Below, one piece after another: positions 3-18,667 of a stretch of 22,212 bases of DNA. Made by a program: the position numbers and the translations under genes. The notes below the pieces were generated by a model, which was not told where the DNA came from, did no database searches, and saw nothing but the letters and a program-made list of their open reading frames with translations. This stretch comes from a virus, in IMG/VR virus record IMGVR_UViG_3300017952_000117, positions 1 to 22,212 of that record; one strand, written 5' to 3'. Numbering within the stretch: position 1 is the first letter of the stretch; every line of letters begins with the position of its first letter.

Positions 3-3000
3 GGATATGATGTAATTAATCCACCAAATATTCATATTGGTGATACTGTTGGCACTGGCGCAACTGCATATGCAATTGTCGAAAATGGATCTTTAGATTC
101 CATTGAGATTATTTCTGGTGGTTATGATATTAGAGCCGTACCTAATGTATCAATCATTGGTGGAAATGGATCTGGAGCTACTGCTTCAGCAAGACTTAGA
201 TCAATAAGAAATACAAGAACATTCAATGCTGACATTGATGTCAATACAACGGATGATCAGATCGTATTTAATTCAAAACACCTATTTTACAATGGTGAAT
301 CGGTATTTTATGAAAAGGCAAATAACTTTGCAGCTGTTGGTGGACTGGTAGATAGTTCAATCTACTATGTCCATAAAGTAAATGACACCACAATTCAGTT
401 GATGGTAAAATATGAGGATGCAGCTGCAGGAATAAATCCAATTGACTTGACCAGTAAGTCGGCGGGTACTAACACACTTACTGCAACAACAAGTAGAAAT
501 ATTCTTGATAAAATTATCGTTGATAATGCTGGATCTGGATATTCAAATCGAAAGGTTTTAGTAGAATCTGCCATCTATCCTCCAACTGATTACACAGCTG
601 AGTCAACAATCAGAAGTGGAATCAATACCTCAAATGATTATATCTTCTTTAAGGCACATGGATTCAATCATGGTGATTTAGTAGAGTATAGAACCACAGA
701 AACTGAAATTACTGGTCTTAGTACAACACAAAATTATTATATTAATAAACTTAATGATGACAAGTTTAATCTTGTTAGTGCTGGTATTGGAACAACCGCT
801 TCGAGTATAGATTTTGATAAAAAAGACTACATCAGTTTCGGTTCAATTGGTGTTGGTACTCATATATTCAAATATCCAGATATCAACGTTGTCGTAGATA
901 CGATTTCTGGAACAGCCAGTACTGCAATTTCTCATCCAGTAGTGAGACCAATTTGCACTGGTGAGATAACACAAGTACAGTTAACATCTATTGGTTCTGG
1001 ATATGGTGTAACTGACACCTTCAATGTACATAGAAGACCAAACGTAACAATATCAAATGGTTCTGGTGCAGTTATTGATGTTGTTGTGACCGAAGGTCAA
1101 ATAACTCAGGCATTTGTTAAAATTTCTGGTAGTGGGTATGTAACACCACCAACTTTGGTGGTTAATGGTGATGGAAAATATGCAAAACTTGTAGCTAACT
1201 TATCAGATGGTCAATTAAGTAGTGTTTCCATTGTTGATTCTGGAAAAGGATATACTCAAAGTAACACTACGGTAAGTGTTGTCACCGCAGGCGTCGGTGC
1301 AAAACTGACCGCAGATGTAACCAAATGGCAAGTAGATTTTGTACAGAAATATAAAGACTCCATTAATGAGAATGATGATGGTGTCATTTTATCAAGTCAA
1401 AATGAAGATTATGGATTAAAATTTGCACACTCATATCTCTCAAGAAAATTAAGACTTTCTCTCAACGATAACATTGAGGATGATTTCAGTGAAAAGTCAA
1501 CCGTAGCTCACTCACCTATTGTTGGATGGGCATATGATGGTTGTCCGATTTATGGTCCATATGGATATAGTTCACCAACTGGAGGAGCCATTCGTAGACT
1601 TACTCCAAGTTATACACTTGCAACAAAATCCAATAGGCCTCCAACATCAATCTATTCATTAGGATTCTTTATCAATGACTGGGAATATACCGCAGATGGT
1701 GATCTTGATGAATATAATGGTAGATTCTGCAAAACACCAGAATTCCCAGATGGAGTTTATGCATATTTCTGTACCATTGAAGCCACGGATAGTTCAGATT
1801 CTCCATTTACAAATACTAGGGAGCCTTTATTCCCATATGTTTTAAATGGATATAAACATGAGGTAAATCCTTTTAACTTAAATCCTTCCTCTATACAAAA
1901 TATTTCTTTAATTAATAATGGAACACTTGTAAGAAATACTTATCCGTATAAATTCGGATTTAAGTCAAGTGCGTATGATTATTTGACAACCAATAATCTT
2001 GAAGATACTCAGATAACAGTTAGAAATATTATTAGGACTGGAATTGGGTCTGTAAGTGTAGTTGTACCAGGTATCGACTATAAAGTAAATGATCCAATTA
2101 CTTTTAACAACATTAACAGTGGTGGTCAATCAGCGTCAGCTGTTGTTAAAACTCTTGTTGGAAAAGGTGTTTCTAGTATCTCGTTTACTGAAACTGAAGT
2201 AAACAATATAACCTTTACTATTGAGAATCAAACTGTAACTGGTGTTGCAACCACTGCACACAATCTTTCTAATAATGATATTGTTATTATTAGTGGAATT
2301 GGAACAGGAGAACTCAAGTTCATTGAAGGGAAAAGAACTATCTCGGTTTCTTCTGTAACATCTAGACTCGATGTTGGTATTGGTACTAGTGGTGCAACTG
2401 GAATCACCACCACATTGGTTCTTGCAAATTCTGGATCAACTCCAAACATTTTCGTTGATGATGTTATCGGTATTGGAAGTGAAAGAATGAGAGTTCTTTC
2501 AATCAACGCAGATAAAAACGAATATAGAGTTCGTCGTGTTGCAGGCTTACTGACCTCTCATGAAGCTGGCGAACAGGTAACAATTGATCAGAGTAGATTC
2601 TCCTTCACTGTTGGTATCAAAACAAATCTAACAACACCAGCAAACAAAAAAATTGTTTTCAATCCACAAAATTCTATTGGAATTGGAACGACGGTTGTTG
2701 TTCAGAGTGTAGCTGGTGTTGGTACAACCACTGTTGTTAGAGTAAAGGCATATGATGGAACAATCTTAACCAATCACCAACTGCCTCCATCTGGATCTTC
2801 TGCGGACAACATGATTAGTATTTCTAATCATGGATTGTTATCTGGTCAAAAATTAACCTATAGTGCGGGCCCAACAGGTGTTGCATTAACAGTATCTAAT
2901 AATCTTGATCTGAGTAACCCATTTAATTTGTCGGATGGACAAACTGTCTATGCTGTTGATAAGGGTAATAACCTTCTGGGAATTACTACAACAAAGGCTG

Positions 3001-6000
3001 GAATTGGAAGTACATCAACATCTCTCTATTTTACACCAGTTCAGGAAAATACTGGAGTCGAACATTCATTTGAAACTGCCAATCTTTCATATGTTGGTAG
3101 TGTAAAACGATATGATGTTACCATGAAGACCGTTGATTCTCATGAATTGAAAACTGGTGACAACATATCCGTTCACTTACTTCCAAACACAACAAAATCA
3201 GTAGCTCTTGAGTATGATACCATTTCAAGAAAAACTACTATTGATCCAAAATATTTTGCAACATCTGCTGTTGGTGTTGGAACTTCCCTGTCTACCATAA
3301 CCATCACTGATCACAAATATTCAAGTGGTGATAAAATTCTTTATAGTTCATCAAATCCAATCACTCCTTTGACAAATAAAGGTGAGTATTATGTTCAAAG
3401 GCTAGATGATAACAGATTTAGATTATCGACAAATTATGTTGATGCAACTAAGTTTGGTGGTCAATTTATTGGAATTACTAGTTTTGGATCTGGTGTTCAT
3501 AAGGTAACTGCAATCAATCCACATGTTACGGCTAGAAGAGGTCAAACCATTGGATTTGCGGTTTCTGATGTAACGGTTCAAGACTTTAAACTCGAATTCT
3601 TTGAAGATGAAAGTTTTGAAAATAGATATGAGGGATTTGGTATCAGTACCGAAGTAACAAGATCTGGAACACCTGGAACTTCTGGTGCTGTAGTGAACTT
3701 GAAACTCTCTGAGAGTGTACCTTCTCCACTTTACTACAAATTAACGCCGCAGAGTCTGGATACTATTTCTGTCACCAAGAGAGATGCAAATCCAGATGTT
3801 AGTGTTAATAATGGATCTAAGATTATTATCTTTGATAGTGTTTACTCTGGTAGACACGGTATCACGAGTACATCTGATACTGAGCTTAGATATCAAGTAA
3901 CTGAAGAACCAGAATCTGCAAGTTACACATCATCATCTGGAATTACTACATTTAGTTATAGTACAGATTCTACTAATGCTCTTGGTGGAATTAACGAAAT
4001 CAAAGTTAATTTTGGTGGTATCAATTACCTGAGAAATCCTGGAATTACTACAATTAGAACCACATCAGGCAAAAATGCGATTCTAAGACTGTATGATGAT
4101 CAGGTTGGAAGACCAGGTGCAAGAGAAGTTGTCAATCTGGGATTTGAATATCCATCTGATAATACTATCAAACCTTCTGTTGATCTACCAACGGTAGTTA
4201 CTATTACTAATAACTATGTTCTTAACAAAGTTGGTATCGTAACCGCTGGTAGAAATTACATTATTGCTCCAGATTTAATTATTCCAGATAGACCAGATGT
4301 AACACTGGTTGCTAACTTAGAAGGAACTTCTATTGGATCTGTAGAAGTTACAAATGTTGGTCGTGGATTTAACGAGGTTCCAAATCCACCAAGGATTGTT
4401 GCGGTTAGAAACACAAATGGTGTTGGTATTGTTTCTGCAAGTTCTAATGGGGACACCAATTTCTTGACCATTACACAACCTACTAATGGTTGGAGGGCTG
4501 ATGGATCAGACTTCCCATTTGATGTGGGAGATAAAATCTTTGTTGAAGGCATCGGACTAACAACGTCATTAACATCAACTGGTGGTTACAATTCTGAGGA
4601 TTATGATTATAACTTCTTTGAGATTTTGACTAGAAATCCATCGAGTGCTCAGATTACTTATTCTATCGCTGGAATCGGAACCACTGGTGGAACTTTCAAT
4701 GCAGATGATAGTGCTGGTAGAGTTATTAAATCAACAGATCTTCCCACATTCTCGGCTGAACTAAATTCAGAGTCATTCTTCTCTGGTGAAAGAGTAACTT
4801 ATGGTTCTGATGGAATTGGTTTTGTTCTTGATAATCAAGGTTATGATCCAGTAACGAATACTGTTAGACTAAGATCCTTAACCGCATCTATCAATATTGG
4901 AGACGTTGTTAAAGGTTTCTTATCTGGATCAGAAGGCACAGTTGCCAATGTAGAAACACCTAATAAATTCTTCAATGTTGGCTTTGGTGCGGAAAGGACG
5001 AAAGGTTGGCAGAGAGACACTGGTAAATTAAATGACGACTTCCAGAAAATCGAAGATAATGACTACTATCAAAACTTCTCATACTCAATTAAGAGTCAAG
5101 TTCAAGAGAAAGAATGGAAAGATGCTGTAAACAGTATTGTTCATCCAACTGGATATAAAAATTTCTCCGACCTTGTTGTTATTTCTTCAACCACTGCTGG
5201 ATTTGGTAGAAGCTCAAATCTTGATCTTGGTCAACCAACAAGTGATACGGTTCTTTCTGTTAATATTGATAACTTGAAATCTTTCTATACTAGAGATGAT
5301 TTTGATATTGGTGGAGAGGAAACTCTTACCAATGGTCTTTCTAAGTTTGTGACCCTACAAAATAAGAGAATTTCGGCCTTTATTAATGTGGACTCTAACC
5401 GAGTTGATATTATTGATGATATTTCCGATCAGTTTACTGGTATTGGAACAACAACTAGTACAAACATTGTTGGATTGACAACCTTTAAACTTACTAGAAC
5501 GAACAGATCGGTTGTTCTCTTCAACAAAGTATTTGATGGTTCAAGTTCAAGTGTAGTTTCTGTTGGTTCTTCTATTATCAGAATCAACAACCATGACTTC
5601 CAGACTGGTGAAAGAATCAAGTATGATCCTGGTGCAGCCTATGGCAACAATAGAGTTGGTATTGTAACAACCAATAAAGTTCTTGGTGGTGTTTCCACTT
5701 CGTTCATGCCTGCAGAAGTTTATGTTATCAAGATTGACAATAACAGATTCTCTCTGGCTGGATTGAACACTGCCGTTACAAATAATGAACCCTTCTTCTT
5801 CCGTGCAGTTGGATCTGGTACAAGTCATTCATTCGATGTTTTAAACCCAGACAAGAGAGTTGTTATTGACGTTGATGGTATGGTTCAGTCTCCACTCTTT
5901 AAGAGAGGCATTAATGTAACTCTTGCTGAAGCTGTTGGAGTTGGTTCTACAACTATTAAGGTCACTGGAATTACATCAATTACTGCAAATGATTTGTTTA

Positions 6001-9000
6001 ATATTGACAATGAGATTATGCAGGTGGGTGTTGTTGGATTTGGTTCAACAAACGTACTAACGGTTGATCGTGGATTACTTGGAAGTGTTGCAGCTGCACA
6101 CACAGTTGGTGCTGCAGTAACTGTACGTGGTGGTAACTTCCATATTGTTAAGGATGTGATTCACTTTGTTACTGCTCCATATGGACCAACTGGAGTTAGT
6201 ACATTACAACCAGGTATTAGCACATCTTCTACTTTTGGTGGTCGTGTATTCAATAGAAAGAATCCAAATACCAACTTTATTTTTGATGACATTTCCGACC
6301 AATTCACTGGTATTGGTAAGACATTTACACTTCTTCAGGATGATCAGGACGTTACTGGTATTGTTACTACAATATCTGGTCCTGGTGGTAGTAATGAAGT
6401 TGTAAACAATGGATTTATCCTTATTAACAACGTTGTTCAGTCTCCATTGGTTGATTACACCATGGACGAAAGAACTGGATCTGGAATTGGTGCTTCTATC
6501 TTCTTCACTGGAACGACCAGAACTAATCTTCCTAGGGGTGGAATTGTTGGGGACGTTTCTGTTGGTTTTGGTTCTGGATACCAGAATTTGGTTGCAGCTG
6601 CCGCAACCGCAGTTGTAAACGGTTCGGGTGCAATTGAGTCGGTTGTTGTTACTGGTGGTGGATCGGGATACAGATCTTCTGATTCTGTTTCTATTCAGAT
6701 TTTCAATCCTCTTGGAATCGGATCAACGGCAGTTCTTTCAGCAACTGTCGGAACTGCAGGAACAATTACTGGTATTTCTACAGTAAGTGGTGGATCTGGA
6801 TATGCATCCACAACTCCTCCAGTAATCGTTGTTGGTATTCCGACAGCATACAATAATGTATCATTTACTGGTGGACAAGGAAATGGATTTAAGGCTACTG
6901 TTGTAGTTGGTACGGGCGGAAGCATCATTGATTTCAATATCACTGATAGAGGAATTGGATATTATAATGGTGATGTTTTAACTGCCGCTGGAATCCCAAC
7001 AGATCCAAATGTTGGTGCGGCATTTAGTGCATTTACATTCACTGTTAATAGTAGAATCGATGACAAGTTCTCTGGATTTAGTTTCGGTCAGATTCTTCCA
7101 CTTGATAGTTTTGCTGATGAATTTGATGGAAGTCAAACTGTATTCACCTTAACAAAGACTACAGTTACTACTGAGATCATTAACATTGATACTGAAGACA
7201 CCTCTCTTGATGTTGGTAATAATTTGATCATCTTCATTAATGATATTTTACAGAGACCAGGTGCAAACTATACTTTCACTGGAGGAACCCAAGTTCAGTT
7301 TACCGAAGCTCCAAAAGCTGGAAGTAAGTGTCAGGTCTTGTTCTACAGAGGATCTAATGCAGACGTAACTGATGGAACTCCTTTCCCAACGGTTAAGATT
7401 GGAGATAGACTGACCTTACAGAGAAAAAATAATATTGTTGGTCAACTTGATAGAAGGGTAACTGCGATTACTGGTGTTAAAAAGGCAGAAACTAATTTGT
7501 ATGCTGGTGTTGGTATTAACTCTAACGCCGCATTTACAAGGTCTGTTTCTTGGCAAAAACAAACAAGTGATTTGATTCTGAACAATCAAGCTCTTCCAAA
7601 ATCAAGAACCTCACTGATTGGCAAAATTCATCCAACCACTAGAATTATTCAGAATGTTGGTGTTTCTTCAGATGCAATTTTTGTAGAGAACGCATTCCCA
7701 CTGTTTAGTGCTTATGATAATAGATCTGATAGAAACAGTGTTCTTGGTGGAAGTATCAAGATCATGAAAGAGAATAATGTTGACGCGGCTGATGCCACTG
7801 CAACAGTGTCTCTTGGGGGAACAATTTCTGGATTTACTATCACGGATCCTGGTGCTGGATATGATACATTACCAACAATTTCCTTTGCATCTACTATTCC
7901 ACAAACTAAAGAAGTTGGTAAAGATTGGACTGCGGTAGATTCAAATACCGACATTGAATATCAAGATGTTGATTATGCAGATAGTGGAATATTTGTTGCT
8001 GTTGGAAGTACATCTGGAATTAACACTTCTAAGGATGGAGTTACATGGAACTCTTCGACATCAAGTGGATTTGGGACCTACTTTAGTGTTGTTGGTTTAA
8101 CAACAAATATTATTGCTGTTGGACTTGGAGGTACAATCGCGGTTAGCACAGATCGTGGTGGTAGTTACACGAATTCCAGAATTTATACAAGAACTCTGAA
8201 TGGATTCCTTTACACATACAATGATGACAATGTTTCTATTGATTTGAATTCAGTTATTGCTGGAACGACTAAAGCTGTTGCAGTTGGTGCTGGTGGAACC
8301 ATTCTGTTCTCTGAGGATGGGCCTCTTGGTCTTGGAACTGCTTTTGTCATTGCTAATAAGTATTCAATACAAAATCTTCGTGGTGTTGGAAACAACGCAA
8401 ATACTTTCATTGCCGTCGGTGACAATGGAGAACTTCTGAGATCTAATGATGGTGAAATTTGGTCTGGTGTTACAACCACCTCAATCACAACGAGATTGAA
8501 TGATGTGCATCATGGTGATAATGCATGGATTGCTGTTGGAGCAGCAGGAACAATTATTCGATCAACTGATGATGGTCTGAATTGGTCAGTTGTTTCCTCT
8601 GGAGCCACTTTCAGTCTGAATTCTGTCAGTTATGACAACAACGTTTGGGTTGCAGTTGGACAGACTGGAAATGTGATGAACTCCTTTAATGGAACTCATT
8701 GGTATCCAAGATCCGTTGGCGTTACTACAGATTTCAATGGACTTGCATTTGGTGATAATAAACTGGTAACAGTTGGACTGTCTTCGAATATTCTGTACAG
8801 TGAGTTTGCAACCGTATCTGCAGCTGCAACCGCTACGGTTTCTGCCGCAGGAACAATCACATCAATTAATTTAACAGAACGTGGTTTTGGTTATGATCCA
8901 AATACATCTGTAGAGGTTCTTATTTCTACAGAACCAGTCACAATTGAGATAATTACCAGTGCAGATTGTGACGGCGACTACGGTGTAGTTGTTGGTCTTG

Positions 9001-9494
9001 GAACAAGTTCAACTGGTATTGGAACTGATAGTCCAATGGTCAAATTTGAATTGCAGTCAGATCCGTTCTTAGATCAAGCTGCTTTTGGTAATATTACCAA
9101 GAGTGGTATTTCTCAAGGTTATTACTTCGTTATTCACGATTCTGTTGTTGGCAATGGACTGACATCAATTAATGTTGATGCAAGTGTTATTGGAGTTGGA
9201 ACAACATTCATTGATAATGTATACAGAGCTGATGAAATTATTACGTCTACTTCTGGTATCGTTACTGTATGTTCCAACGTTCAGTCTCTTGCTGGACTGG
9301 GAACAACCAGCCTATCTCCTAAGATTGGTTACTATAGTTGGGGTAGATTCTATTCATTCAATAGAGATGTTGTAAACCCACAATCTTTCAGTATCAATAA
9401 TCAAAATGGATATGCTGGACTTACTACAGCGCCAGTTGTTTATCGTGTTAGTGCGGTAACAGAAAATTATAATGACTTAAGTGAGACTTCATAA
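3..9494 (+). CDS. Giant modular virion structural protein (baseplate/tail associated), 5' truncated by window
   Basis: The frame is open from the first bases of the window to TAA at 9492-9494, giving at least 3163 residues; the real start lies upstream. A TTG/ATG at 399/402 is internal, because the protein reads through it with the same repeat style on both sides. Domains seen: HGL-type beta modules (about 235-400, 620-790, 2800-3050, 3290-3510, 5560-5840); GSGY repeats (3-200, 965-1320, 2040-2185, 4210-4410, 6550-7050, 7785-7895, 8805-8940); a YHYH-like domain (1509-1860); a YYQNFSYSIKS...HPTGYKNF module (5050-5185); three F.G..T.FTLT modules (from 5415, 6285, 7110), the latter two with an ILINNVVQSP- or IFINDILQRP-type sequence; an RG/H cell-like module (5930-6130); and a seven-blade propeller (7914-8811). 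It ends with GYYSWGRFYSF followed by a conserved-looking tail. Similar giant proteins are known in marine T4-like phages. Its position before gene 8 matches T4 gene 7, but I see no gp7 homology. Virion location is inferred from context. Confidence 0.85.
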   Translation, partial: GYDVINPPNIHIGDTVGTGATAYAIVENGSLDSIEIISGGYDIRAVPNVSIIGGNGSGATASARLRSIRNTRTFNADIDVNTTDDQIVFNSKHLFYNGESVFYEKANNFAAVGGLVDSSIYYVHKVNDTTIQLMVKYEDAAAGINPIDLTSKSAGTNTLTATTSRNILDKIIVDNAGSGYSNRKVLVESAIYPPTDYTAESTIRSGINTSNDYIFFKAHGFNHGDLVEYRTTETEITGLSTTQNYYINKLNDDKFNLVSAGIGTTASSIDFDKKDYISFGSIGVGTHIFKYPDINVVVDTISGTASTAISHPVVRPICTGEITQVQLTSIGSGYGVTDTFNVHRRPNVTISNGSGAVIDVVVTEGQITQAFVKISGSGYVTPPTLVVNGDGKYAKLVANLSDGQLSSVSIVDSGKGYTQSNTTVSVVTAGVGAKLTADVTKWQVDFVQKYKDSINENDDGVILSSQNEDYGLKFAHSYLSRKLRLSLNDNIEDDFSEKSTVAHSPIVGWAYDGCPIYGPYGYSSPTGGAIRRLTPSYTLATKSNRPPTSIYSLGFFINDWEYTADGDLDEYNGRFCKTPEFPDGVYAYFCTIEATDSSDSPFTNTREPLFPYVLNGYKHEVNPFNLNPSSIQNISLINNGTLVRNTYPYKFGFKSSAYDYLTTNNLEDTQITVRNIIRTGIGSVSVVVPGIDYKVNDPITFNNINSGGQSASAVVKTLVGKGVSSISFTETEVNNITFTIENQTVTGVATTAHNLSNNDIVIISGIGTGELKFIEGKRTISVSSVTSRLDVGIGTSGATGITTTLVLANSGSTPNIFVDDVIGIGSERMRVLSINADKNEYRVRRVAGLLTSHEAGEQVTIDQSRFSFTVGIKTNLTTPANKKIVFNPQNSIGIGTTVVVQSVAGVGTTTVVRVKAYDGTILTNHQLPPSGSSADNMISISNHGLLSGQKLTYSAGPTGVALTVSNNLDLSNPFNLSDGQTVYAVDKGNNLLGITTTKAGIGSTSTSLYFTPVQENTGVEHSFETANLSYVGSVKRYDVTMKTVDSHELKTGDNISVHLLPNTTKSVALEYDTISRKTTIDPKYFATSAVGVGTSLSTITITDHKYSSGDKILYSSSNPITPLTNKGEYYVQRLDDNRFRLSTNYVDATKFGGQFIGITSFGSGVHKVTAINPHVTARRGQTIGFAVSDVTVQDFKLEFFEDESFENRYEGFGISTEVTRSGTPGTSGAVVNLKLSESVPSPLYYKLTPQSLDTISVTKRDANPDVSVNNGSKIIIFDSVYSGRHGITSTSDTELRYQVTEEPESASYTSSSGITTFSYSTDSTNALGGINEIKVNFGGINYLRNPGITTIRTTSGKNAILRLYDDQVGRPGAREVVNLGFEYPSDNTIKPSVDLPTVVTITNNYVLNKVGIVTAGRNYIIAPDLIIPDRPDVTLVANLEGTSIGSVEVTNVGRGFNEVPNPPRIVAVRNTNGVGIVSASSNGDTNFLTITQPTNGWRADGSDFPFDVGDKIFVEGIGLTTSLTSTGGYNSEDYDYNFFEILTRNPSSAQITYSIAGIGTTGGTFNADDSAGRVIKSTDLPTFSAELNSESFFSGERVTYGSDGIGFVLDNQGYDPVTNTVRLRSLTASINIGDVVKGFLSGSEGTVANVETPNKFFNVGFGAERTKGWQRDTGKLNDDFQKIEDNDYYQNFSYSIKSQVQEKEWKDAVNSIVHPTGYKNFSDLVVISSTTAGFGRSSNLDLGQPTSDTVLSVNIDNLKSFYTRDDFDIGGEETLTNGLSKFVTLQNKRISAFINVDSNRVDIIDDISDQFTGIGTTTSTNIVGLTTFKLTRTNRSVVLFNKVFDGSSSSVVSVGSSIIRINNHDFQTGERIKYDPGAAYGNNRVGIVTTNKVLGGVSTSFMPAEVYVIKIDNNRFSLAGLNTAVTNNEPFFFRAVGSGTSHSFDVLNPDKRVVIDVDGMVQSPLFKRGINVTLAEAVGVGSTTIKVTGITSITANDLFNIDNEIMQVGVVGFGSTNVLTVDRGLLGSVAAAHTVGAAVTVRGGNFHIVKDVIHFVTAPYGPTGVSTLQPGISTSSTFGGRVFNRKNPNTNFIFDDISDQFTGIGKTFTLLQDDQDVTGIVTTISGPGGSNEVVNNGFILINNVVQSPLVDYTMDERTGSGIGASIFFTGTTRTNLPRGGIVGDVSVGFGSGYQNLVAAAATAVVNGSGAIESVVVTGGGSGYRSSDSVSIQIFNPLGIGSTAVLSATVGTAGTITGISTVSGGSGYASTTPPVIVVGIPTAYNNVSFTGGQGNGFKATVVVGTGGSIIDFNITDRGIGYYNGDVLTAAGIPTDPNVGAAFSAFTFTVNSRIDDKFSGFSFGQILPLDSFADEFDGSQTVFTLTKTTVTTEIINIDTEDTSLDVGNNLIIFINDILQRPGANYTFTGGTQVQFTEAPKAGSKCQVLFYRGSNADVTDGTPFPTVKIGDRLTLQRKNNIVGQLDRRVTAITGVKKAETNLYAGVGINSNAAFTRSVSWQKQTSDLILNNQALPKSRTSLIGKIHPTTRIIQNVGVSSDAIFVENAFPLFSAYDNRSDRNSVLGGSIKIMKENNVDAADATATVSLGGTISGFTITDPGAGYDTLPTISFASTIPQTKEVGKDWTAVDSNTDIEYQDVDYADSGIFVAVGSTSGINTSKDGVTWNSSTSSGFGTYFSVVGLTTNIIAVGLGGTIAVSTDRGGSYTNSRIYTRTLNGFLYTYNDDNVSIDLNSVIAGTTKAVAVGAGGTILFSEDGPLGLGTAFVIANKYSIQNLRGVGNNANTFIAVGDNGELLRSNDGEIWSGVTTTSITTRLNDVHHGDNAWIAVGAAGTIIRSTDDGLNWSVVSSGATFSLNSVSYDNNVWVAVGQTGNVMNSFNGTHWYPRSVGVTTDFNGLAFGDNKLVTVGLSSNILYSEFATVSAAATATVSAAGTITSINLTERGFGYDPNTSVEVLISTEPVTIEIITSADCDGDYGVVVGLGTSSTGIGTDSPMVKFELQSDPFLDQAAFGNITKSGISQGYYFVIHDSVVGNGLTSINVDASVIGVGTTFIDNVYRADEIITSTSGIVTVCSNVQSLAGLGTTSLSPKIGYYSWGRFYSFNRDVVNPQSFSINNQNGYAGLTTAPVVYRVSAVTENYNDLSETS
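965..1320 (+). repeat. GSGY-type beta repeats, three tandem units
   Basis: Three consecutive protein units share the pattern G-x-(I/L)-x-x-V-x-(I/V), then G(S/K)GY, then a stretch ending in a hydrophobic strand and a Gly-rich turn. Landmarks are IGSGYGV (about 990), ISGSGYVTPP (about 1125) and DSGKGYTQS (about 1236). Each unit is about 35-45 residues. The same unit recurs elsewhere in this protein, in the gp8-like protein and in the DUF4815-type protein. It is probably a short beta-strand building block; no enzymatic motif is seen. Confidence 0.7.
1509..1860 (+). other. Degenerate YHYH domain within the giant structural protein
   Basis: The translation contains GWAYDGCPIYGPYGY (about 1521-1565), then LDEYNGRFCKTPEFPDGVYAY (1703-1766), then PYVLNGYK (about 1834-1857). 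This order (DG.PIYGPYGY, LDE.NG, TPE.PDG.Y.Y, PY..G) is the signature of the YHYH protein family. The family-naming YHYH tetrad is here YAYF (1758-1769), so both histidines are absent. YHYH domains are known as inserts in marine phage structural proteins. The function is unknown; loss of the histidines argues against any metal or catalytic role that depends on them and favours a structural role. Assignment rests on motif recognition only. Confidence 0.75.
5415..6317 (+). repeat. Two copies of the DDISDQFTGIG module start
   Basis: The 11-residue sequence DDISDQFTGIG occurs at 5415-5447 and again at 6285-6317. The two 33-nt stretches differ at 5 positions, all of which leave the protein unchanged. 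Each copy begins a module of the F.G.(G).T.F.LT type seen in phage fibres and tail proteins; a third, divergent copy (ADEFDGSQTVFTLT) starts near 7113 and leads to IFINDILQRPGANYTF. The region between the two copies carries a module with GVGSTTIKV, an IDNEIMQVG segment and DRGLLGSVAAAHTVGAAV (about 5935-6125), a pattern common in phage structural proteins. Confidence 0.7.
6550..7050 (+). repeat. GSGY-type beta repeats, four tandem units
   Basis: Landmarks are GFGSGYQN (about 6570), GGGSGYRSSD (about 6655), SGGSGYASTTPP (about 6788) and DRGIGYYNGD (about 6945). Between them run Ala/Val-rich strands such as AAAATAVVNGSGAIESVVV. It is the densest array of this unit in the window. The units are divergent in DNA, so the array is not a recent tandem duplication. 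It is probably an elongated beta structure; the function is unknown. Confidence 0.7.
7914..8811 (+). other. Seven-blade Asp-box (BNR/Ycf48-like) beta-propeller domain
   Basis: Seven units of the form (I/V)AVG..G.I..S.DG..W are visible, starting near 7991, 8109, 8271, 8406, 8526, 8646 and 8763. Six of the seven are 39-45 residues apart and one (2 to 3) about 54. Examples are FVAVGSTSGINTSKDGVTW, WIAVGAAGTIIRSTDDGLNW and WVAVGQTGNVMNSFNGTHW. Blades 1, 2, 4 and 5 keep Asp-box-like S.D.G.(T/S)(W/Y) turns; blades 3, 6 and 7 are degraded. The domain opens with KDWTAV and closes with NILYSEF, as expected if the first and last strands together close the ring. It is flanked on both sides by GSGY-type units. 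Propellers of this fold often bind glycans or protein partners; here a receptor or structural docking role is an inference. Confidence 0.8.
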
Positions 9495-9516: not shown

Positions 9517-11121
9517 ATGCCTGCGATTATCTCAGATCAATTTAGGATATTAAATGCTGCGAATTTTGTCGCTGGTGTAGCGAATACGCAGCAGTCATAT
9601 TATACTTTTATTGGATTGCCAAATTCTAATGATGTTGGTGCCGGCTATGGCACTACAGATTGGAATTCTAATACTCCTGCACCCAAAGATGGTCTTAGGG
9701 AGTATAATGATGATTATGACACCATGATCGCACTTAAAAAGCTTGCGACTGGTGACGTAAAACGAATGGTGAGAAAATATACTTGGACTGCGGGCACAAT
9801 CTATGAAATGTATAAGGACACTTATACAAGAGATAATCTAAGTCCACAAACTGCGTCTACAAACTTGTACGATGCAAAGTATTATGTGGTAAACAGTCAG
9901 TTTAAAGTTTACGTTTGCATTAATAACGGACAAAACCCAGATAATCCACTCGGAAAACAGTCTCTGGATGAACCAACATTTACAGATCTTGAACCAAGAT
10001 CTGCTGGCTCTAGTGGAGATGGATATATCTGGAAGTATCTCTACACGATTGTTCCAACAGACATTGTGAAATTTGATTCTATTGATTTTATTCCAGTGCC
10101 AAATGACTGGGGAACTGGTGATACTTCGGATGTTAAGAACAATTCTGTTGACGGTAAAATTGAAACTGCCCTGATTGTAAATGCGGGTGGTGGATATCAA
10201 CCAATCAGTACAACATTTACTAATGTTCCTATTTTGGGAGATGGTACTGGTGGTAGAGCTAGTGTAACAGTTGATAACCAAGGTAAGGTATCTGCGGTAT
10301 CAGTTACCAACGGTGGTAGGGGATATACCAGAGGAACAATTCAGTTCTATCCTGGTGCTCCTGGTGCAGAGACTGGTGGTCCTATTGCTGGACTTTCTGC
10401 AGTTGGTGTTGGTACAACATCTGTAGCTCAGTTTGAAGTTCCAATTCCTCCTATTGGAGGACATGGGAATGACGTTTACAAAGAGTTGGGTGCATTTAGA
10501 GTTCTTCTTTATTCTCGTTATGAGAATGATTCGTCTAACCCAGATTTTATCACTGGAAACGACTTTGCTAGAGTGGGAGTTGTCAAAAATCCATTGACTC
10601 CATCAGGAAGTCTTCTGGAACAATCTAGAGCTAGTGCCCTTTTTGCACTTAAATTAGAATCAACAACTGGTGGTAACATCGCAGACACAACGTATACAGT
10701 TGATACCCCAATTTATCAACAAATTGGTATTGGATCTACTGCTGTTGGTTATGTTGCAAATTGGGATTCTTCCACTGGTGTTCTAAAAGTTTATAATCCT
10801 GTTGGTTTAGGATCAACAACATATGGATATAGATTGGTAGACTTCACTTCACAGATTGGTGTTGGTGGAACTTACATTATTAGTGGTCAAACATCTGGAA
10901 ATGCACTTGGTATCAATACAAGTTTTGGTACATCAGCAAATCCAGGAACTGCAACGACTGTTGGAAGTGCTTTGGTTCAACTTGGCCAAAGTTTTGTTGA
11001 AGGTGTTGCTCAACCAGAAGTTAAAAAATATTCTGGGGAGATCTTATACATAGATAACAGGGCAGCGATTCAGCGCTCCGCCAGCCAGAAAGAAGACATC
11101 AAAATCGTATTAGAGTTCTAA
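9517..11121 (+). CDS. 8: Baseplate wedge protein, T4 gp8-like
   Basis: A protein of 534 residues beginning MPAIISDQFR. Features recognised as the gp8 family: QSYYTFIGLP (residues 26-35), VKRMVRKYTWTAGTIYEMY (81-99), YYVVNSQFKVYVCINN (122-137), DGYIWKYLYTI near 168-178 followed by KFDS and FIPVPNDW, and the C-terminal YSGEILYIDNRAAIQR with EDIKIVLEF as the last residues. In T4, gp8 is a wedge component that binds gp7 and gp10 in the baseplate. T4 gp8 is 334 residues. The extra length here comes from GSGY-type units at about residues 218-280 and GIGSTA/GLGSTT-linked stretches at about 400-490. The gene starts 22 nt after the previous stop and ends 4 nt before the next ATG. The ATG at 9517 is the only sensible start, since the family-conserved N-terminus begins there. 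Confidence 0.9.
   Translation: MPAIISDQFRILNAANFVAGVANTQQSYYTFIGLPNSNDVGAGYGTTDWNSNTPAPKDGLREYNDDYDTMIALKKLATGDVKRMVRKYTWTAGTIYEMYKDTYTRDNLSPQTASTNLYDAKYYVVNSQFKVYVCINNGQNPDNPLGKQSLDEPTFTDLEPRSAGSSGDGYIWKYLYTIVPTDIVKFDSIDFIPVPNDWGTGDTSDVKNNSVDGKIETALIVNAGGGYQPISTTFTNVPILGDGTGGRASVTVDNQGKVSAVSVTNGGRGYTRGTIQFYPGAPGAETGGPIAGLSAVGVGTTSVAQFEVPIPPIGGHGNDVYKELGAFRVLLYSRYENDSSNPDFITGNDFARVGVVKNPLTPSGSLLEQSRASALFALKLESTTGGNIADTTYTVDTPIYQQIGIGSTAVGYVANWDSSTGVLKVYNPVGLGSTTYGYRLVDFTSQIGVGGTYIISGQTSGNALGINTSFGTSANPGTATTVGSALVQLGQSFVEGVAQPEVKKYSGEILYIDNRAAIQRSASQKEDIKIVLEF
10168..10356 (+). repeat. GSGY-type units inserted in the gp8-like protein
   Basis: Residues 218-280 contain two units with landmarks NAGGGYQPIS and NGGRGYTRG, separated by a DGTGGRASVTV turn and strand. 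They are the same type as in the neighbouring giant protein. T4 gp8 is too short to carry them, so they look like an insertion between the two halves of the gp8 core. Confidence 0.65.
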
Positions 11122-11125
11122 GAAA

Positions 11126-14100
11126 ATGCCCCAAGAGACTAACCTCAACGTTTCTCCATATTTTGATGATTTTAATGAGGAGAAGAACTTTAATCGGGTA
11201 TTATTTAAACCCGCTAGTCCAGTTCAGGCAAGAGAATTAACAACTCTTCAATCTATTCTTCAGAACCAAATTGAGAGATTTGGTCAACACTTCTTTAAAG
11301 AAGGTGCAATGGTCATTCCTGGCCAAATTGCATATGACCCACTATATTATGCTGTAGAGTTAAATGATACGTTCTTGGGGGTCCCTCTCTCAGAGTATCT
11401 CGATAAACTGGTTGGTAAAGTAATTAGAGGTGAGTCTTCTGGGGTTGAAGCTACGGTAGTAAACTATGTTTTAGCCACGAATTCTGATAGGGGAAATAAT
11501 ACACTTTATGTAAAATATTCAAAATCTGGTGGAGATTTTGCTACAGAAACTTTTCAAGATGGTGAGAATCTTGTAACAGCTTCTGATATTGAATACGGAT
11601 TATCAAGAATTTCTGCGAATAATCCATTTGGATCATGTATTCCAAATGCCGCAACTTCTATTGGATCAGCCGCATCTATTCAGGATGGTGTTTACTTTAT
11701 TCGTGGTTTCTTCGTAAGAGTAACTGCAGATACCGTTATTCTTGATCAATATGGTGATAGACCCAACTATAGAGTTGGTCTGTTGATCAGTGAAAACGTT
11801 GTTACTGCTTATGATGATGATTCACTCTTTGATAATGCAAAGGGATTTACAAACTTTGCAGCTCCTGGTGCAGATAGATTCCAGGTAAAAACTACTTTAA
11901 TCAAAAAATCTCTCACAGAATTTAATGACGAAAACTTCGTCGAATTGATGAGGCTTGAAAATGGACAATTACAGAAGTTTGTTAAGAAAACTGATTATAA
12001 TATCATCCGTGATGAGTTAGCAAGAAGAACTTATGATGAGAGTGGTGACTACTATGTAAAACCATTCCAAGTAACTGTACAAGAGTCTTTAAACAACAGA
12101 CAGGGTAATGGTGGTATATACTTACCATCCCAAAAAACATCTGAAGGTGGAGCTCATAGTTCAGACTTAATGCTTTATGCAGTTTCGCCTGGTAAAGCAT
12201 ATGTAAGAGGTTTTGATATTGAGAAACTAAACACTAGTTACATTGATGTACCGAAGCCAAGAGATACAAAAACTGTAGACTCATCATCGTTCGTTTTTGA
12301 TGGTGTAAATTACATTAAGATTAATAATGTCTATGGATCTCCCGTTGTTGGATTTGGAACAACTGCGACAGTAAGTCTTAGAAGTGAAAGAATTGGAACC
12401 ACGGGTTCTGATGCTGCAGGCATTGAAATTGGTAATGCAAAGGTATACGATTATAAGTTAGAAGCTTCTGCATATTCTAACGCTGCTACAAAGTATGATT
12501 TGTATCTTTATGATCTTGCAACATTTACAACAGTTACTGTAAATACAGACACCACGCAAACAACTCCAGCTCTGATTGAGGGTGCAAGGAGTGGTGCAAG
12601 AGGATTCTTGAAGAGTGATGTAAGTGGATCTAAGTCTCTGACACTCACATCCACTAGTGGTCAGTTTATCGTTGATGAACCAATTATCATTAATGGTATT
12701 ACACAGAGTACCGTTGTTACTTCCATTAGAGAGTACTCTTTTGATGATATCAAGTCTGTTTATCAAACCGTTGGTATCAATACTTTTAATGCAGATACAA
12801 GTCTTTCAAATCGATTCTCACTCGCTCCCGCAGGAACCAATTTCACTGTAGGAACTGCTGGTATTGTTACTGCTCCAGGAAACAGATTCTCTGTTGGTAT
12901 TAAGACTGGAGATATCGTAACTTATAATAGAACTGGATTTGCCGATCCAACATTCAACAGGGTAAGTTCTGTTGCGGCTGATGGATCTACTCTCACTCTC
13001 GTTTCTCTTGGTGCATCAGTACCTGGAGTTTGTGATGGTGGACTCACCACTTCCGAAATTCAGTCCAGTGATTTCTCACTGATTAGACCTAGAGTTGTAA
13101 ATGGAAATAGATCGAGTCTCATTTCACCACTCCCAACTCCATTCATTTCAAATGTAGATCTTTCATCTGCAGAAATTCAGATCAGAAGACAATTCACTCT
13201 TAATGTTGCCACCAACAGAGCTACGGTTACTGTATCGGATTCTGATCAATTCTTCCAACCTTTTGACGAAGAAAGGTACAATCTGGTTTATTCTGATGGA
13301 ACTGTAGAATATCTGAATTCTCAGAAAGTAACATTCAACTCAACATTCAAAACCATTACTTTAGCTGGTCTGAGTAAAGCAAGTGACACGAATGCTATTC
13401 TCGTAACTACTCTTAAAAAGACCAATGTAAGGTCTCAAGATAAGACTCTTTCGAGATGCACAAAGTTGGTTGTTTCTAGATCCAAGTATGATTACTCTGG
13501 AGCAGCTTCAACAAACTTTAATGATGGTTTAACATATAATCAAGTTTATGGAACTAGAGTTCAGGATAGAGAAGTATCCCTGAACGTTCCAGACGCTCTT
13601 AGAGTACACGCTGTATTTGAATCTAGCACAACTGCTGCACCAACACTTCCAAATATCACCCTTGTCAACAGATCTACTGATTTGACAGATACGATTCAAG
13701 GTGAACTAATTGTTGGTGCCGTGAGTGGAGCTGTTGCAAGAGTTGTGACATCTGCAGCGTCTAACGTTGACATTGTATATCAGAACGATCTGAGATTTAG
13801 TGTTTCTGAATCAGTAACATTCCAATCGTCTGGAATTACAGGTGAAGTATCGGCTGTTGTCATTGGTGACAAGAACATCGTTAAGAACTTCACTTTTGAT
13901 AATGGACAGAGACCAGAATACTATGATTACTCCAGAATTATTAGAAAAGAAGGTTCTCAAGAGCCTAAGAAACAATTAGCAATTGTTTATGATAACTATG
14001 TAATTGACTCTGGATCCAATGGTGATATGGGAACAGTCAATACATATTCCCCAGACACCTATGAGACGGATCTTCCAACCTTTGGTGGTCGTCCAAATTC

Positions 14101-17100
14101 AGACTTTATTGATATAAGACCAAGAGTCAAAAACTACGATTCTTCCACTGATACAGATTCTCCATTCGAATATGATTTCAGAGACTTTAGTTCTTCTGGA
14201 TCATATGTACCAAATATTCTTGTTGGCGATGAAAGTCTAACTCTTGGTTATTCTTATTATATGGGAAGAATTGATAAGATTTTCCTCTCTAAAGATGGAT
14301 TCTTTGAACTGAAGCAAGGAGCTTCTTCAGACTTCCCAGTTGCTCCAGATACTCCAGGTGGATCATTTACTGTTGCTACGATTTACAACAGACCATACAT
14401 TCATAATGCATCTCAAGAAACCGCAGTGGTTCTTGCAAAACATAAGAGATACACTATGTTCGACATCTCCAGACTGGAGACACGTCTCAAGAACGTAGAG
14501 TTCTACACACAACTTTCTCTCCTTGAGACTGATACTGCGAATCTGAATATTAAAGATGCTGTAACTGGTCTTGATAGATTTAAGTCTGGATTCTTTGTTG
14601 ATAACTTCAGAAGTCATGGATCACATTCCATTGTCCATCCAAACTTTAGAGCTTCGATTGATAAAGCTTCTGGACATTTGAGACCACTTCACTATACTCA
14701 TGGTATTGATCTCCTTCTTGGTTCTGAACAAGTAATTGGTATTGGCACAACTGCAAATCCAAATGCAGATTTGACTCAAGTATCAGACTTACAGTCCAAT
14801 GCGTTGAGAAGAACTGGTGATGTTGTAACTCTTGACTATTCTGAAGCCGAATTCATCAAGCAGAGATTTGCTACCAGAACTGAAAACGTTAACCCATTTG
14901 CTGTAATTAATTGGGTTGGTGTTGCAAATCTGAACCCAGCTAGTGATGTATGGGTCGATGAAAAGAGACTTGATGTGAATAACATCACTCTTGAAGGTGG
15001 TTATCAAGCATTCATGGATTCCCTTTCAGTAGATCCCAATACTGGATTTGCTCCTATTGACTGGGGTTCATGGGAAGAAGAGTGGAGTTCTATCGATATC
15101 AGCACAACAGAACTTTCAAGAGATCTCCAGTCAACTGAAGTAAGTCAAGTTGGTGGATGGAGACGTGGATGGACTGGTGGTGGTCAACAAATTGCAAGTG
15201 AACATTCGGCTCTCGCTCAGAGAACTAGAAACGTTACCATGCAGGACAACTTCCTGGTAACTAATGAAGAGACTATTACGATTGATAGAGGTCTTACCAG
15301 AAGTGGTATTCAGATTCAAGTTAATGAAAGAATCGATACACAATCTCTTGGAACTAGATTAATCAGTCAGGAAACCATTCCTTACATGAGATCTAGAAAC
15401 ATTGAGTTTGTTGTTAATAGAATCAAACCAAGAACACGTTTCTACATCTTCTTTGAGAATCAAGATGTAACTCAATATGCAACACCAAAACTCCTTGAAA
15501 TCGACATGGTTCAGGGTGTATTCCAAGTTGGTGAGACTGTTAAGGGAACATTCGCCGATAATGGACTGGATGGTGGTTCTTTACCAGAAATCACGTTTAG
15601 AGTTGCACAACAAAATCACAAATATGGTTCATATGATTCACCAACGATTATCTATGATGTGAATCCATATGCAGATGCAGTTGGTCTCAGTTCAGTATAT
15701 TCTGCAACAAGTAGTGTTCTGAACATTGACACAGCATCTCTTCAAGCAGAAGTTCTTGGAAACTTTACTGGATACGCTGCGAAGAATATGAGATTGGTTG
15801 GTCAAACCAGTGGTGCTGAGGCTACTGTTTCCGACTTTAGACTCATCAGTGATGAAAAGGGTGCATTGATTGGATCTCTCTTCATTCCTAATTCTTCACT
15901 CCCAACAGTTCCTCAGTTCAGAACTGGAGTTAAGACTTTCAGATGCACAAGTAGCCCAGTAAATTCTCTGAGTCCTGTTGATAATCCATCGACAGCTGAA
16001 GTTTCTTTCCGCGCAGAAGGTGTTCTGGACACAGTTCAAGATGATGTTATTGGCATTAGAAATCCAGAAATTCAAAGAGAAACTCTGTCCGATAGCACTG
16101 TTACTAATCAAAGTATTATTAGAACTGTACAAACTGCAGCGTTTGAAGAGAGAACAGTTGCACAAAACCAGTGGTTTGACCCACTTGCAGAGTCGTTTGA
16201 AGTTGTTGAAGATAACGGAGTATTCGTTTCTTCATGTGACATTTTCTTCCAGACAAAGGATGACAACATTCCAGTAACTCTGCAGATTAGAACAATGCAG
16301 ACTGGTCTGCCTACTCAGACAGTTATTGGATTTGGTGAGGTTATTTACGAACCATCTCAGGTTAATGTTTCTGAAGATGGTAGTGTGGCTACAAGATTCG
16401 TATTCCCATCCCCAGTTTATCTTGCTGGTAAGAGAGAATACGCCCTCGTTCTTCTGTCCGCATCAAATAACTACAGAGTCTTCATCTCTAGAATGGGTGA
16501 AGAAGACATTTCTACTGCAAATCTGGCTGAAAGTGAGAGAATTATTGTTTCTCAACAACCTTACATGGGTTCGTTGTTCAAATCACAGAATGGATCAACA
16601 TGGGATGCAAGCCAGTTTGAAGATCTCAAGTTTACTCTTAATAAGTGTAATTTCGTTCCTGGTCCTGGCACTCTCAAACTTTACAATCCAGAGTTGGGTG
16701 TTGGTAAGTTTGAATTCCCAAGATTGCGTCCAGACCCAATTGAATATTATTCACATGAAATTAAAGTTGGTTTTGGAAGTACTGTTGCAACCAGAGACTT
16801 CAATGTTGGATCTAAATTCACTCAGGTTGGAAATACTAACGCCGAAGGAAACCTTGTCAAATCTCTTGGCGCAATCAAGATCAACACTACATCTACTGAA
16901 GCTGGTGGAATCACAACTAACACGGTTGGAACTGGTTTAACACCATCAGCATCCAACTTCACGTTTACTGGTATTGCACTCACATCTATTACTGGCAATG
17001 GATCTGGTGCTGTTGCAAATATTCAGGTTTCTAGTGGCTCCATCGGAGTTGTTACAGTTACTAGTGGTGGTTCTGGATATGCTGTTGGTGATGTTCTTGG

Positions 17101-18667
17101 ATGTACCCTTGGTGAAACTGGAACAGGAACAAGATTTAACGTTGGTATCATTTCCGCAACCAACAGCATCATTCTTGACAGAGTTCAGGGTGAATTTACA
17201 ACGTCATCCGAACTGATGACTATTAACGCCGTTGGTGTTGCGTCTACCTTACCAGGATCGCAACCTTCAGCCATTAATAACACTGCATCATACAAAGATG
17301 GTTTACATGTCAAGGTAAATCATAGAAACCATGGTATGCATGGTAGAAACAATAGAGTAACGATTGCGGGTGTTGTTGGTGTTAACACGACAACTACTGT
17401 CTCATCTCAGTATTCGAATACATCAACCGCAGATCTGGAACTTGGATCGGTATCGGTATTCTCCAACTTTGAAAACGTTGGTGTTTCCACAACCAATCCA
17501 GGATATGTGAAAATTAACAATGAAATTATTGCATACACTGGAACTGACGCATCTGCAACACCACAAAAACTCACTGGAATCACCAGAGCCATTGATAATA
17601 CTGTTGCAGAAACTCATAGAGTTGGTGATATTGTTCAAAAGTATGAAGCTTCTGGAATCTCTCTCAGAAGAATCAATACAACTCACCAGTTCTCAAGTGT
17701 TAATAATTCTAATGAGATTACTCTTGATAGTTACTATCTTAAGGTCGATGTTACTTCAAGTGGTATTGGAACTGTGAGAGATGGAACCAACAGTTTCCCT
17801 GCACTGAAAATCAATGACACTGAGATCTCTGGAGGATACAAGGCTAAGGCAACACAAAACGTTCAGTTCGAAGCCTTGACTCCACTTGTAGAGTTCTTAA
17901 CACCTAGAGATACTGGATTCTCTGGAAGAGTTAGAACAGTTTCTGCAACAAGTGTTAGTGGATCCGAAAGTTCTTTCCAAGATAAAGGATTTGAAAGTGT
18001 TACCCTCAATGGTGTTAATTATTTCACAGATCCTAGAATGTTTGCTTCGAAGATCAACGAACAAAATCAACTGAGTGCGTTACCTGGTAACAAGTCATTC
18101 ACAATGGAGTTGGTTCTTTCTTCACTTGATCAAAATGTTTCTCCTGTGATTGATGTTGATAGACTTGCGGTCATTACAACTACAAATAGACTTGATCAAA
18201 GAATCACGAATTATCCAGATGATAATAGAGTGAATGAAAGATTCAGTGATCCAAATGCTGCAGTTTATATCAGTAAGAGAGTTAATCTGGAAAATCCAGC
18301 AACATTCTTACAAGTCAAGTTTGCTGCATATCGTCACATTTCTAGTGATATTAGAGTTCTCTACAGACTCTTTAGAACTGATACTTTTGATAAGGAAACT
18401 CCATATGAACTCTTCCCTGGTTATGACAACATGACCGATACAACAGGGGATGGATTTGGAGATCAGGTAATTGATCCAAAACTGAACAATGGTAAACCTG
18501 ATAGATTTGTTCCTGCCTCAAGATTTGATGAAGAGTTCAGAGATTATCAGTTTACAGCAAGTAGTCTCCCAGAGTTTAATGGGTTTGAAATCAAAGTTAT
18601 CATGACAGGTACAAATCAAGCTTACGTTCCTAAAGTTAGAGATTTTAGAGCCATCGCATTTGCATAA
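11126..18667 (+). CDS. Giant DUF4815-type baseplate/tail structural protein (2513 aa)
   Basis: The N-terminus has the DUF4815-type hallmarks: YFDDFNEEKNFNRVLFKP, then PVQARELTTLQSILQNQIE and FFKEGAMVIPGQIAYD. Further landmarks are YVRGFDIEK (about 12200-12230), YTMFDISRLETRLKNVEFY (about 14450), LDRFKSGFFVDNF, a PYMRSRNIEFVVNRIKPRTRF segment (about 15379), a module from SFEVVEDNGVFVSSCDIFF (about 16195) to PYMGSLFKSQNG (about 16560), one GSGY unit near 17070, a His-rich HRNHGMHGRNN (about 17325) and an EETH-like ITRAIDNTVAETHRVGD module (about 17578). The C-terminus contains DTTGDGFGD, a Ca-binding-like acidic loop, and ends KVRDFRAIAFA. Such proteins are standard virion components of marine T4-like phages, sitting where T4 has genes 9-10. 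The exact place in the baseplate is unknown. It starts 4 nt after the gene 8 stop and shares a TAATG overlap with the next gene. Confidence 0.85.
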   Translation: MPQETNLNVSPYFDDFNEEKNFNRVLFKPASPVQARELTTLQSILQNQIERFGQHFFKEGAMVIPGQIAYDPLYYAVELNDTFLGVPLSEYLDKLVGKVIRGESSGVEATVVNYVLATNSDRGNNTLYVKYSKSGGDFATETFQDGENLVTASDIEYGLSRISANNPFGSCIPNAATSIGSAASIQDGVYFIRGFFVRVTADTVILDQYGDRPNYRVGLLISENVVTAYDDDSLFDNAKGFTNFAAPGADRFQVKTTLIKKSLTEFNDENFVELMRLENGQLQKFVKKTDYNIIRDELARRTYDESGDYYVKPFQVTVQESLNNRQGNGGIYLPSQKTSEGGAHSSDLMLYAVSPGKAYVRGFDIEKLNTSYIDVPKPRDTKTVDSSSFVFDGVNYIKINNVYGSPVVGFGTTATVSLRSERIGTTGSDAAGIEIGNAKVYDYKLEASAYSNAATKYDLYLYDLATFTTVTVNTDTTQTTPALIEGARSGARGFLKSDVSGSKSLTLTSTSGQFIVDEPIIINGITQSTVVTSIREYSFDDIKSVYQTVGINTFNADTSLSNRFSLAPAGTNFTVGTAGIVTAPGNRFSVGIKTGDIVTYNRTGFADPTFNRVSSVAADGSTLTLVSLGASVPGVCDGGLTTSEIQSSDFSLIRPRVVNGNRSSLISPLPTPFISNVDLSSAEIQIRRQFTLNVATNRATVTVSDSDQFFQPFDEERYNLVYSDGTVEYLNSQKVTFNSTFKTITLAGLSKASDTNAILVTTLKKTNVRSQDKTLSRCTKLVVSRSKYDYSGAASTNFNDGLTYNQVYGTRVQDREVSLNVPDALRVHAVFESSTTAAPTLPNITLVNRSTDLTDTIQGELIVGAVSGAVARVVTSAASNVDIVYQNDLRFSVSESVTFQSSGITGEVSAVVIGDKNIVKNFTFDNGQRPEYYDYSRIIRKEGSQEPKKQLAIVYDNYVIDSGSNGDMGTVNTYSPDTYETDLPTFGGRPNSDFIDIRPRVKNYDSSTDTDSPFEYDFRDFSSSGSYVPNILVGDESLTLGYSYYMGRIDKIFLSKDGFFELKQGASSDFPVAPDTPGGSFTVATIYNRPYIHNASQETAVVLAKHKRYTMFDISRLETRLKNVEFYTQLSLLETDTANLNIKDAVTGLDRFKSGFFVDNFRSHGSHSIVHPNFRASIDKASGHLRPLHYTHGIDLLLGSEQVIGIGTTANPNADLTQVSDLQSNALRRTGDVVTLDYSEAEFIKQRFATRTENVNPFAVINWVGVANLNPASDVWVDEKRLDVNNITLEGGYQAFMDSLSVDPNTGFAPIDWGSWEEEWSSIDISTTELSRDLQSTEVSQVGGWRRGWTGGGQQIASEHSALAQRTRNVTMQDNFLVTNEETITIDRGLTRSGIQIQVNERIDTQSLGTRLISQETIPYMRSRNIEFVVNRIKPRTRFYIFFENQDVTQYATPKLLEIDMVQGVFQVGETVKGTFADNGLDGGSLPEITFRVAQQNHKYGSYDSPTIIYDVNPYADAVGLSSVYSATSSVLNIDTASLQAEVLGNFTGYAAKNMRLVGQTSGAEATVSDFRLISDEKGALIGSLFIPNSSLPTVPQFRTGVKTFRCTSSPVNSLSPVDNPSTAEVSFRAEGVLDTVQDDVIGIRNPEIQRETLSDSTVTNQSIIRTVQTAAFEERTVAQNQWFDPLAESFEVVEDNGVFVSSCDIFFQTKDDNIPVTLQIRTMQTGLPTQTVIGFGEVIYEPSQVNVSEDGSVATRFVFPSPVYLAGKREYALVLLSASNNYRVFISRMGEEDISTANLAESERIIVSQQPYMGSLFKSQNGSTWDASQFEDLKFTLNKCNFVPGPGTLKLYNPELGVGKFEFPRLRPDPIEYYSHEIKVGFGSTVATRDFNVGSKFTQVGNTNAEGNLVKSLGAIKINTTSTEAGGITTNTVGTGLTPSASNFTFTGIALTSITGNGSGAVANIQVSSGSIGVVTVTSGGSGYAVGDVLGCTLGETGTGTRFNVGIISATNSIILDRVQGEFTTSSELMTINAVGVASTLPGSQPSAINNTASYKDGLHVKVNHRNHGMHGRNNRVTIAGVVGVNTTTTVSSQYSNTSTADLELGSVSVFSNFENVGVSTTNPGYVKINNEIIAYTGTDASATPQKLTGITRAIDNTVAETHRVGDIVQKYEASGISLRRINTTHQFSSVNNSNEITLDSYYLKVDVTSSGIGTVRDGTNSFPALKINDTEISGGYKAKATQNVQFEALTPLVEFLTPRDTGFSGRVRTVSATSVSGSESSFQDKGFESVTLNGVNYFTDPRMFASKINEQNQLSALPGNKSFTMELVLSSLDQNVSPVIDVDRLAVITTTNRLDQRITNYPDDNRVNERFSDPNAAVYISKRVNLENPATFLQVKFAAYRHISSDIRVLYRLFRTDTFDKETPYELFPGYDNMTDTTGDGFGDQVIDPKLNNGKPDRFVPASRFDEEFRDYQFTASSLPEFNGFEIKVIMTGTNQAYVPKVRDFRAIAFA

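Follow-up and report, generated by a model that had tools for sequence, protein, structure and literature searches.

A predicted seven-bladed Asp-box beta-propeller at a single site in the gp7-type baseplate protein of T4-like cyanophages

The window analysed here is a viral contig of 22,212 bases. Its first open reading frame (ORF; 3-9494) encodes the C-terminal part of a protein whose full-length relatives measure about 3860-3890 aa. In a profile search the encoded protein scored 2506 bits against PHROG 2885 (baseplate wedge subunit); it contains a YHYH domain (E 2e-25) and is 60% identical to the gp7 proteins of cyanophages S-CAM9 and S-8S55 (3174-3176 aligned columns), which are annotated as baseplate wedge subunit or initiator. 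It adjoins a gp8-like protein, which is followed by a DUF4815 protein of 2513 residues (11126-18667); the order gp25-gp6-gp7-gp8 is annotated in S-CAM9 and S-8S55, and the window holds the gp8 side of this order only. By PHROG match and gene order, the ORF is assigned as the gp7-type baseplate wedge initiator of T4-like cyanophages, which agrees with the preliminary description of a giant protein of the baseplate region; kinship to T4 gp7 itself is suggested by annotation names and gene order. No match to any solved baseplate protein was found when the ORF was compared with PDB sequences (E 0.1), a fold search with the C-terminus of a gp7 relative with an empty site (low-confidence model, pLDDT 67) returned zero matches, and a scan of the window for RNA families and tRNAs identified none. 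The features discussed below are as follows.

3-9494, plus strand: gp7-type baseplate wedge initiator, C-terminal part (3163 aa; ORF open at the 5′ end)
~7791-7913, plus strand: GSGY-type beta unit preceding the propeller (from sequence; three strands in the model; retained in propeller-less relatives)
7914-8807, plus strand: seven-bladed Asp-box beta-propeller domain (ORF residues 2638-2935, 298 residues; homologues at the same site in cyanophage gp7)
7929-7937, plus strand: N-terminal strand completing blade 7 (ring closure; DSSP of the model, residues 54-56)
7959-8060, plus strand: blade 1, Asp-box SKDGVTW (model plus blade and loop analysis)
8079-8177, plus strand: blade 2, degenerate Asp-box STDRGGSY
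8169-8237, plus strand: long beta-hairpin insert between blades 2 and 3 (model strands 137-144 and 147-153)
8244-8351, plus strand: blade 3, GLGTAF in place of an Asp-box
8376-8477, plus strand: blade 4, Asp-box SNDGEIW
8496-8597, plus strand: blade 5, Asp-box STDDGLNW
8616-8711, plus strand: blade 6, Asp-box SFNGTHW
8733-8801, plus strand: blade 7, three strands, without Asp-box; the fourth strand comes from the N-terminus
8808-8942, plus strand: GSGY-type beta unit following the propeller (sequence and model; retained in propeller-less relatives)
8943-9494, plus strand: conserved gp7 C-terminal block (present in 24 phage records)
9517-11121, plus strand: gp8-like baseplate wedge subunit (534 aa; Pfam Phage-Gp8, E 3e-7; PHROG 438, 521 bits)

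GSGY beta units are found not only in the gp7-type protein (3-9494) but also in the gp8-like protein (9517-11121), the DUF4815 protein (11126-18667) and neck proteins; cross-matches of gp7, such as that to "head closure Hc2" (PHROG 460), are likely due to this recurring unit and represent an annotation trap. A head-tail adaptor-like protein (PHROG 211) starts at 21744-22211, and its second part matches PHROG 2885, the gp7 family, again a shared beta module.

The pattern [IVL][ATV]VG..G.[IVLM] occurs seven times in residues 2638-2935 (spacings of 39, 55, 44, 40, 40 and 39), twice in the remaining 2865 residues of the ORF, and on average 0.034 times in the shuffled domain (5000 shuffles). The seven repeats thus stand as originally proposed, but an Asp-box in all seven does not; Asp-box-like turns are present in blades 1, 4, 5 and 6, the turn is degenerate in blade 2, and blades 3 and 7 have none, so that the S-x-D-x-G-x-x-W turn of Asp-box/BNR propellers is found in four canonical-like blades and one degenerate blade of the seven, and the Pfam BNR match stays below its cut-off. 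The start of the proposed span (7914-8811) was retained, while an end at 8807 fits slightly better, and the domain lies between two GSGY-type units as described. An AlphaFold2 model built with 48 homologous rows from IMG/VR presented seven four-stranded blades (pLDDT 89.3, pTM 0.88), with the N-terminal strand (DWTAV) completing blade 7; the W neighbouring this closing strand is invariant in alignment A4. Foldseek against the PDB placed Ycf48 first (TM 0.73 by target, 18% identity), ahead of WD40-type and designed propellers, with propellers occupying the top of the match list, whereas the first match among viral models was gp7 of S-SSM7, both flanks included (TM 0.83 by query). The domain is therefore predicted, by modelling rather than experiment, to be a closed seven-bladed ring, and model and fold search agree with the ring closure suggested from the sequence.

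The insertion site was compared across all loci fetched, using the segment before the propeller (up-block) and the segment after it (down-block). Three states were observed: propeller present, with about 294-337 residues between up-block and down-block; only the two GSGY units present, with a short linker such as NPVGLGTTARAEA between them; and neither propeller nor GSGY units. Known phages with the propeller are S-CAM9, S-8S53/55/56, DSL-LC03, DSL-LC02, S-SSM7, Sf-FS3 and S-SCSM2R, and those without it are Bellamy, SynMITS9220M01, S-T4, B23, Sf-CH8, S-SRM01, S-SKS1 and two single-cell virus genomes. The propeller occupies the exact linker position between the two GSGY units, and the flanking units are unchanged; because other phages keep both units without a propeller, the idea that the domain was dropped into a GSGY array is borne out. 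While the up-block was matched by 389 phage records (E 1e-3), the propeller was matched in only 19 phage records (E 1e-3), some of them with matches outside gp7, indicating that it is a minority trait in isolates; the IMG/VR sample over-represents the propeller-bearing state, since its members were chosen as best hits to the flank and propeller of the window. All 40 rows of the window's own clade carry the propeller, as do some other clades, always at this one site. The preliminary description had reasoned that presence of the domain at this place in all relatives would make it an old fixed part; it is indeed old and fixed in its own clade, but it is absent from many other cyanophages. Two or more ORFs make up gp7 in DSL-LC02 (L012), S-SKS1 (L020) and B23 (L021), a fibre-connector gene lies between two gp7-named genes in S-SSM7 (L011), and the gp7 of S-SCSM2R (L016, 1-8543) carries the misleading annotation "large exoprotein involved in heme utilization or adhesion".

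An unrooted tree of 90 loci was built from the flanks only, leaving out the GSGY units and the propeller, so that gain and loss of the domain are inferred. On this tree the presence of the propeller requires 3 changes (2 of them forced by well supported branches), as compared to 28 with shuffled labels, and 2 changes after three long rows are dropped; constraining all propeller-bearing rows to one clade was not rejected (AU p 0.17), and the propeller tree recovers the same groups as the flank tree. Two irregularities recur in the gp7 propellers across clades: blade 3 lacks an Asp-box, and an insert of roughly 25-35 residues, modelled as a hairpin in the window, separates it from blade 2. The two outside phage propellers that were aligned, from DSL-LC01 and L095, have neither. 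Independent insertion in each clade is disfavoured by these common irregularities. The simplest reading of the trees and alignments is one old acquisition followed by vertical inheritance and one or two losses at most; against the profile, certain outside phage propellers reach the scores of distant gp7 propellers, which leaves some probability for later replacement in single clades and for independent insertion.

The propeller is under purifying selection; its pace of change resembles that of the remainder of gp7 and is far below that of the fibre-like ORF nearby. In close pairs the dN/dS of the propeller, about 0.13-0.26, exceeds that of the flanks only a little; many pairs approach saturation at synonymous sites (dS >1), which makes these ratios rough. 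Propeller dN and up-block dN are correlated (0.88). Compared with S-CAM9, gp8 of the window is 82% identical, the DUF4815 protein 69%, gp7 60%, the propeller 55% and the fibre-like ORF (19487-21526) 33%. Among the propeller loops, with classes taken from predicted strands without coordinates, variability is highest in the AB loops, followed by the DA and CD loops, and lowest in the BC turns, whose conservation may be structural alone; no single conserved face or pocket was found among the loops. The domain has a net charge of -13. Hypervariability, as a sign of receptor binding, was not found in the propeller by the loop and dN/dS analyses. The fibre-like ORF contains internal repeats and is a better host-range candidate than the propeller.

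Because Ycf48 is the best solved-structure match both by fold and by profile (E 3e-8), and because the preliminary description had suggested a gift from a cyanobacterial host, we considered whether the domain is a captured Ycf48 that binds D1 or photosystem II during infection, or mimics such binding. Weak matches to Ycf48 models in NCBIfam and Pfam (NF010237/PF14870) favour this reading, but the score of 25.5 bits lies far below the cut-off of 326, which was exceeded in one of 14 control genomes (Synechococcus elongatus among the 14); profile comparison with Ycf48, BNR and sialidase families, proposed at the outset as a check, reached the cut-off of none of them. Ycf48 binds D1 via an Arg patch (PMC10403576). 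Four of its positions were recognised, on our reading of the alignment, as R-to-E differences between 2xbg and 5ojp; three of them align to N, T and T in the phage protein, and the fourth is R in the window and N or K in S-CAM9 and S-8S55, so the patch is not kept. Moreover, Thermus plasmid proteins match the propeller over its full length (28-32%), its close relatives all lie within cyanophage gp7, and the domain is an internal part of a virion protein. A scan of bacterial and archaeal genome contigs with propeller patterns gave 48 matches, with no relative among them, a weak negative because the patterns are narrow. Given the Ycf48 score, the Arg patch and the Thermus matches, a host gift from cyanobacteria is unsupported, and a captured Ycf48 with a photosystem-related role is very improbable; the comparisons brought no cyanobacterial kinship to light. 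In this group of viruses the propeller is a genuine component, old and slow to change, and probably not a recently taken photosynthesis gene.

Most likely, with confidence that is about evenly balanced, the propeller is a rigid, non-enzymatic docking domain that replaced the GSGY linker early in one branch of T4-like cyanophages. In the C-terminal region of the gp7-type wedge protein, the domain would stand where a short linker had joined two GSGY units, in a branch comprising Kanaloavirus, Lipsvirus and freshwater relatives, and it may act as a protein-binding platform on the baseplate rim, one per wedge, that holds or braces a clade-specific peripheral part, for example a fibre, the connector of a fibre, or the neighbouring DUF4815 giant. 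The gp7 of T4 is monomeric; each virion has six copies at the edge of its baseplate, in contact with gp8, gp10 and gp9 (the fibre connector), and they swivel during triggering (PMC3004832); by analogy with this peripheral protein, the propeller would be placed on or near the rim, presumably in six copies per virion. The position of protein-binding propellers, Ycf48 included, at the head of the PDB fold matches counts for docking, and the nozzle protein of phage SU10, a structural seven-bladed propeller with a fibre-docking loop on blade 1 (PMC9509320), may serve as a fair model. Slow, gp7-like evolution and the lack of an enzyme-family match favour docking or bracing over a host-range adhesin. 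Against docking counts the finding that loop conservation singles out no one interface, and the phages that lack the domain show that a baseplate can, in general, work without it.

The same slow evolution bears on the main, though somewhat unlikely, alternative, namely that the propeller is an exposed receptor- or glycan-binding domain on the rim; once the fibres have bound, it would give the phage a weak second hold on the polysaccharide of the cell surface. The receptor-binding protein of phage phi11 has a propeller with a cavity that could hold the GlcNAc of teichoic acid, the seven-bladed propeller of PhiKZ gp131C at the baseplate periphery has been suggested to bind a receptor (both PMC4901313), and beta-propeller lectins are present in fibres of contractile injection systems (PMC12923769); the variability of the AB and DA loops and a weak match to an Asp-box family named for glycosylhydrolases (E 1.5e-10; 41 bits of a 175-bit cut-off) would also fit. 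However, purifying selection at a gp7-like rate, much slower than in the fibre-like ORF, speaks against a host-range role, and the net charge of the domain and the lack of a conserved pocket count against glycan binding. Asp-box repeats are typical of sialidases, and these repeats and the single weak glycosylhydrolase-named match could point to a sialidase or other glycoside hydrolase; this is highly unlikely, as the domain has seven rather than six blades, no sialidase is among the 50 PDB fold matches listed, and there is no Pfam sialidase match. That the propeller is a tolerated passenger, a bulky neutral domain between modular beta units that is kept only because it folds well, would explain why it sits exactly at the linker with unchanged flanks and why it is absent in many relatives, with at least one loss as the simplest reading, but its retention in 40 of 40 rows of the clade and its low dN/dS over deep divergence make this improbable, since a neutral insert of 900 bases would be expected to decay or be deleted. 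More speculative than docking, and in our view also improbable, is a wedge initiator with a ligand-binding ring of its own, present six times in the virion, which would sense or grip the cell surface and so help to trigger the baseplate; if so, T4-like cyanophages would divide into baseplate types by a propeller gained or lost in a core protein rather than in a fibre.

T4-like cyanophages, whose gp7-type baseplate protein is for no known reason three to four times the size of that of T4, are among the most abundant marine viruses. The locus is a clear example of an entire domain that entered a core baseplate protein at a single precise position, was retained and has probably also been lost, and, as filled and empty sites exist side by side in cultured phages, the role of the propeller is directly testable. 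A literature search, which covered few subscription papers, found no paper on a propeller inside cyanophage gp7; as far as the literature searched shows, the gain and probable loss of a propeller in this protein are described here for the first time. Labels such as "photosystem II assembly factor" on phage propellers need not mean photosynthesis genes. One such label is found in DSL-LC01 (L015), where a stand-alone propeller (5983-6855) lies between collagen-like proteins; the name is probably misleading, since this context indicates a virion protein. In two viral contigs (L095:3591-6998 and L096:1208-3415), Asp-box repeats fill a long stretch, apparently with more than one propeller, that lies behind an N-terminal segment rather like the start of the window's fibre ORF and before a pectin-lyase-like tail-spike segment.

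The closest known systems are the gp7 proteins of S-CAM9, S-8S53/55/56 (Kanaloavirus), S-SSM7 (Lipsvirus) and DSL-LC03, which represent the same protein with the same insertion site and the same propeller as the window (propeller identities of 55%, 51%, ~33% and 31%, respectively); the propeller is unannotated in these records, which name the genes as baseplate proteins only. The same repeat type, with 28-41% identity over parts, occurs outside gp7 in the stand-alone propeller of DSL-LC01, the tail-spike proteins of L095/L096, the tail fibre of Caulobacter phage Percy and the BNR protein of S-CBWM1. The nearest solved fold is the photosystem II assembly factor Ycf48/HCF136 (2xbg, 5ojr, 8am5), likewise a seven-bladed Asp-box propeller; Ycf48 is a lumenal lipoprotein, whereas the window propeller is a domain inside a virion protein, far below the family cut-off and without the Arg patch. 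The propeller of PhiKZ gp131C likewise has seven blades and lies at the edge of a myophage baseplate (PMC4901313), but it is the C-terminal domain of a different protein and is not among the 50 best fold matches listed. In phi11 the receptor-binding protein also places a propeller, with proposed glycan binding, in a baseplate component (PMC4901313); it differs in having five blades and in being a trimeric, dedicated adhesin of a siphophage.
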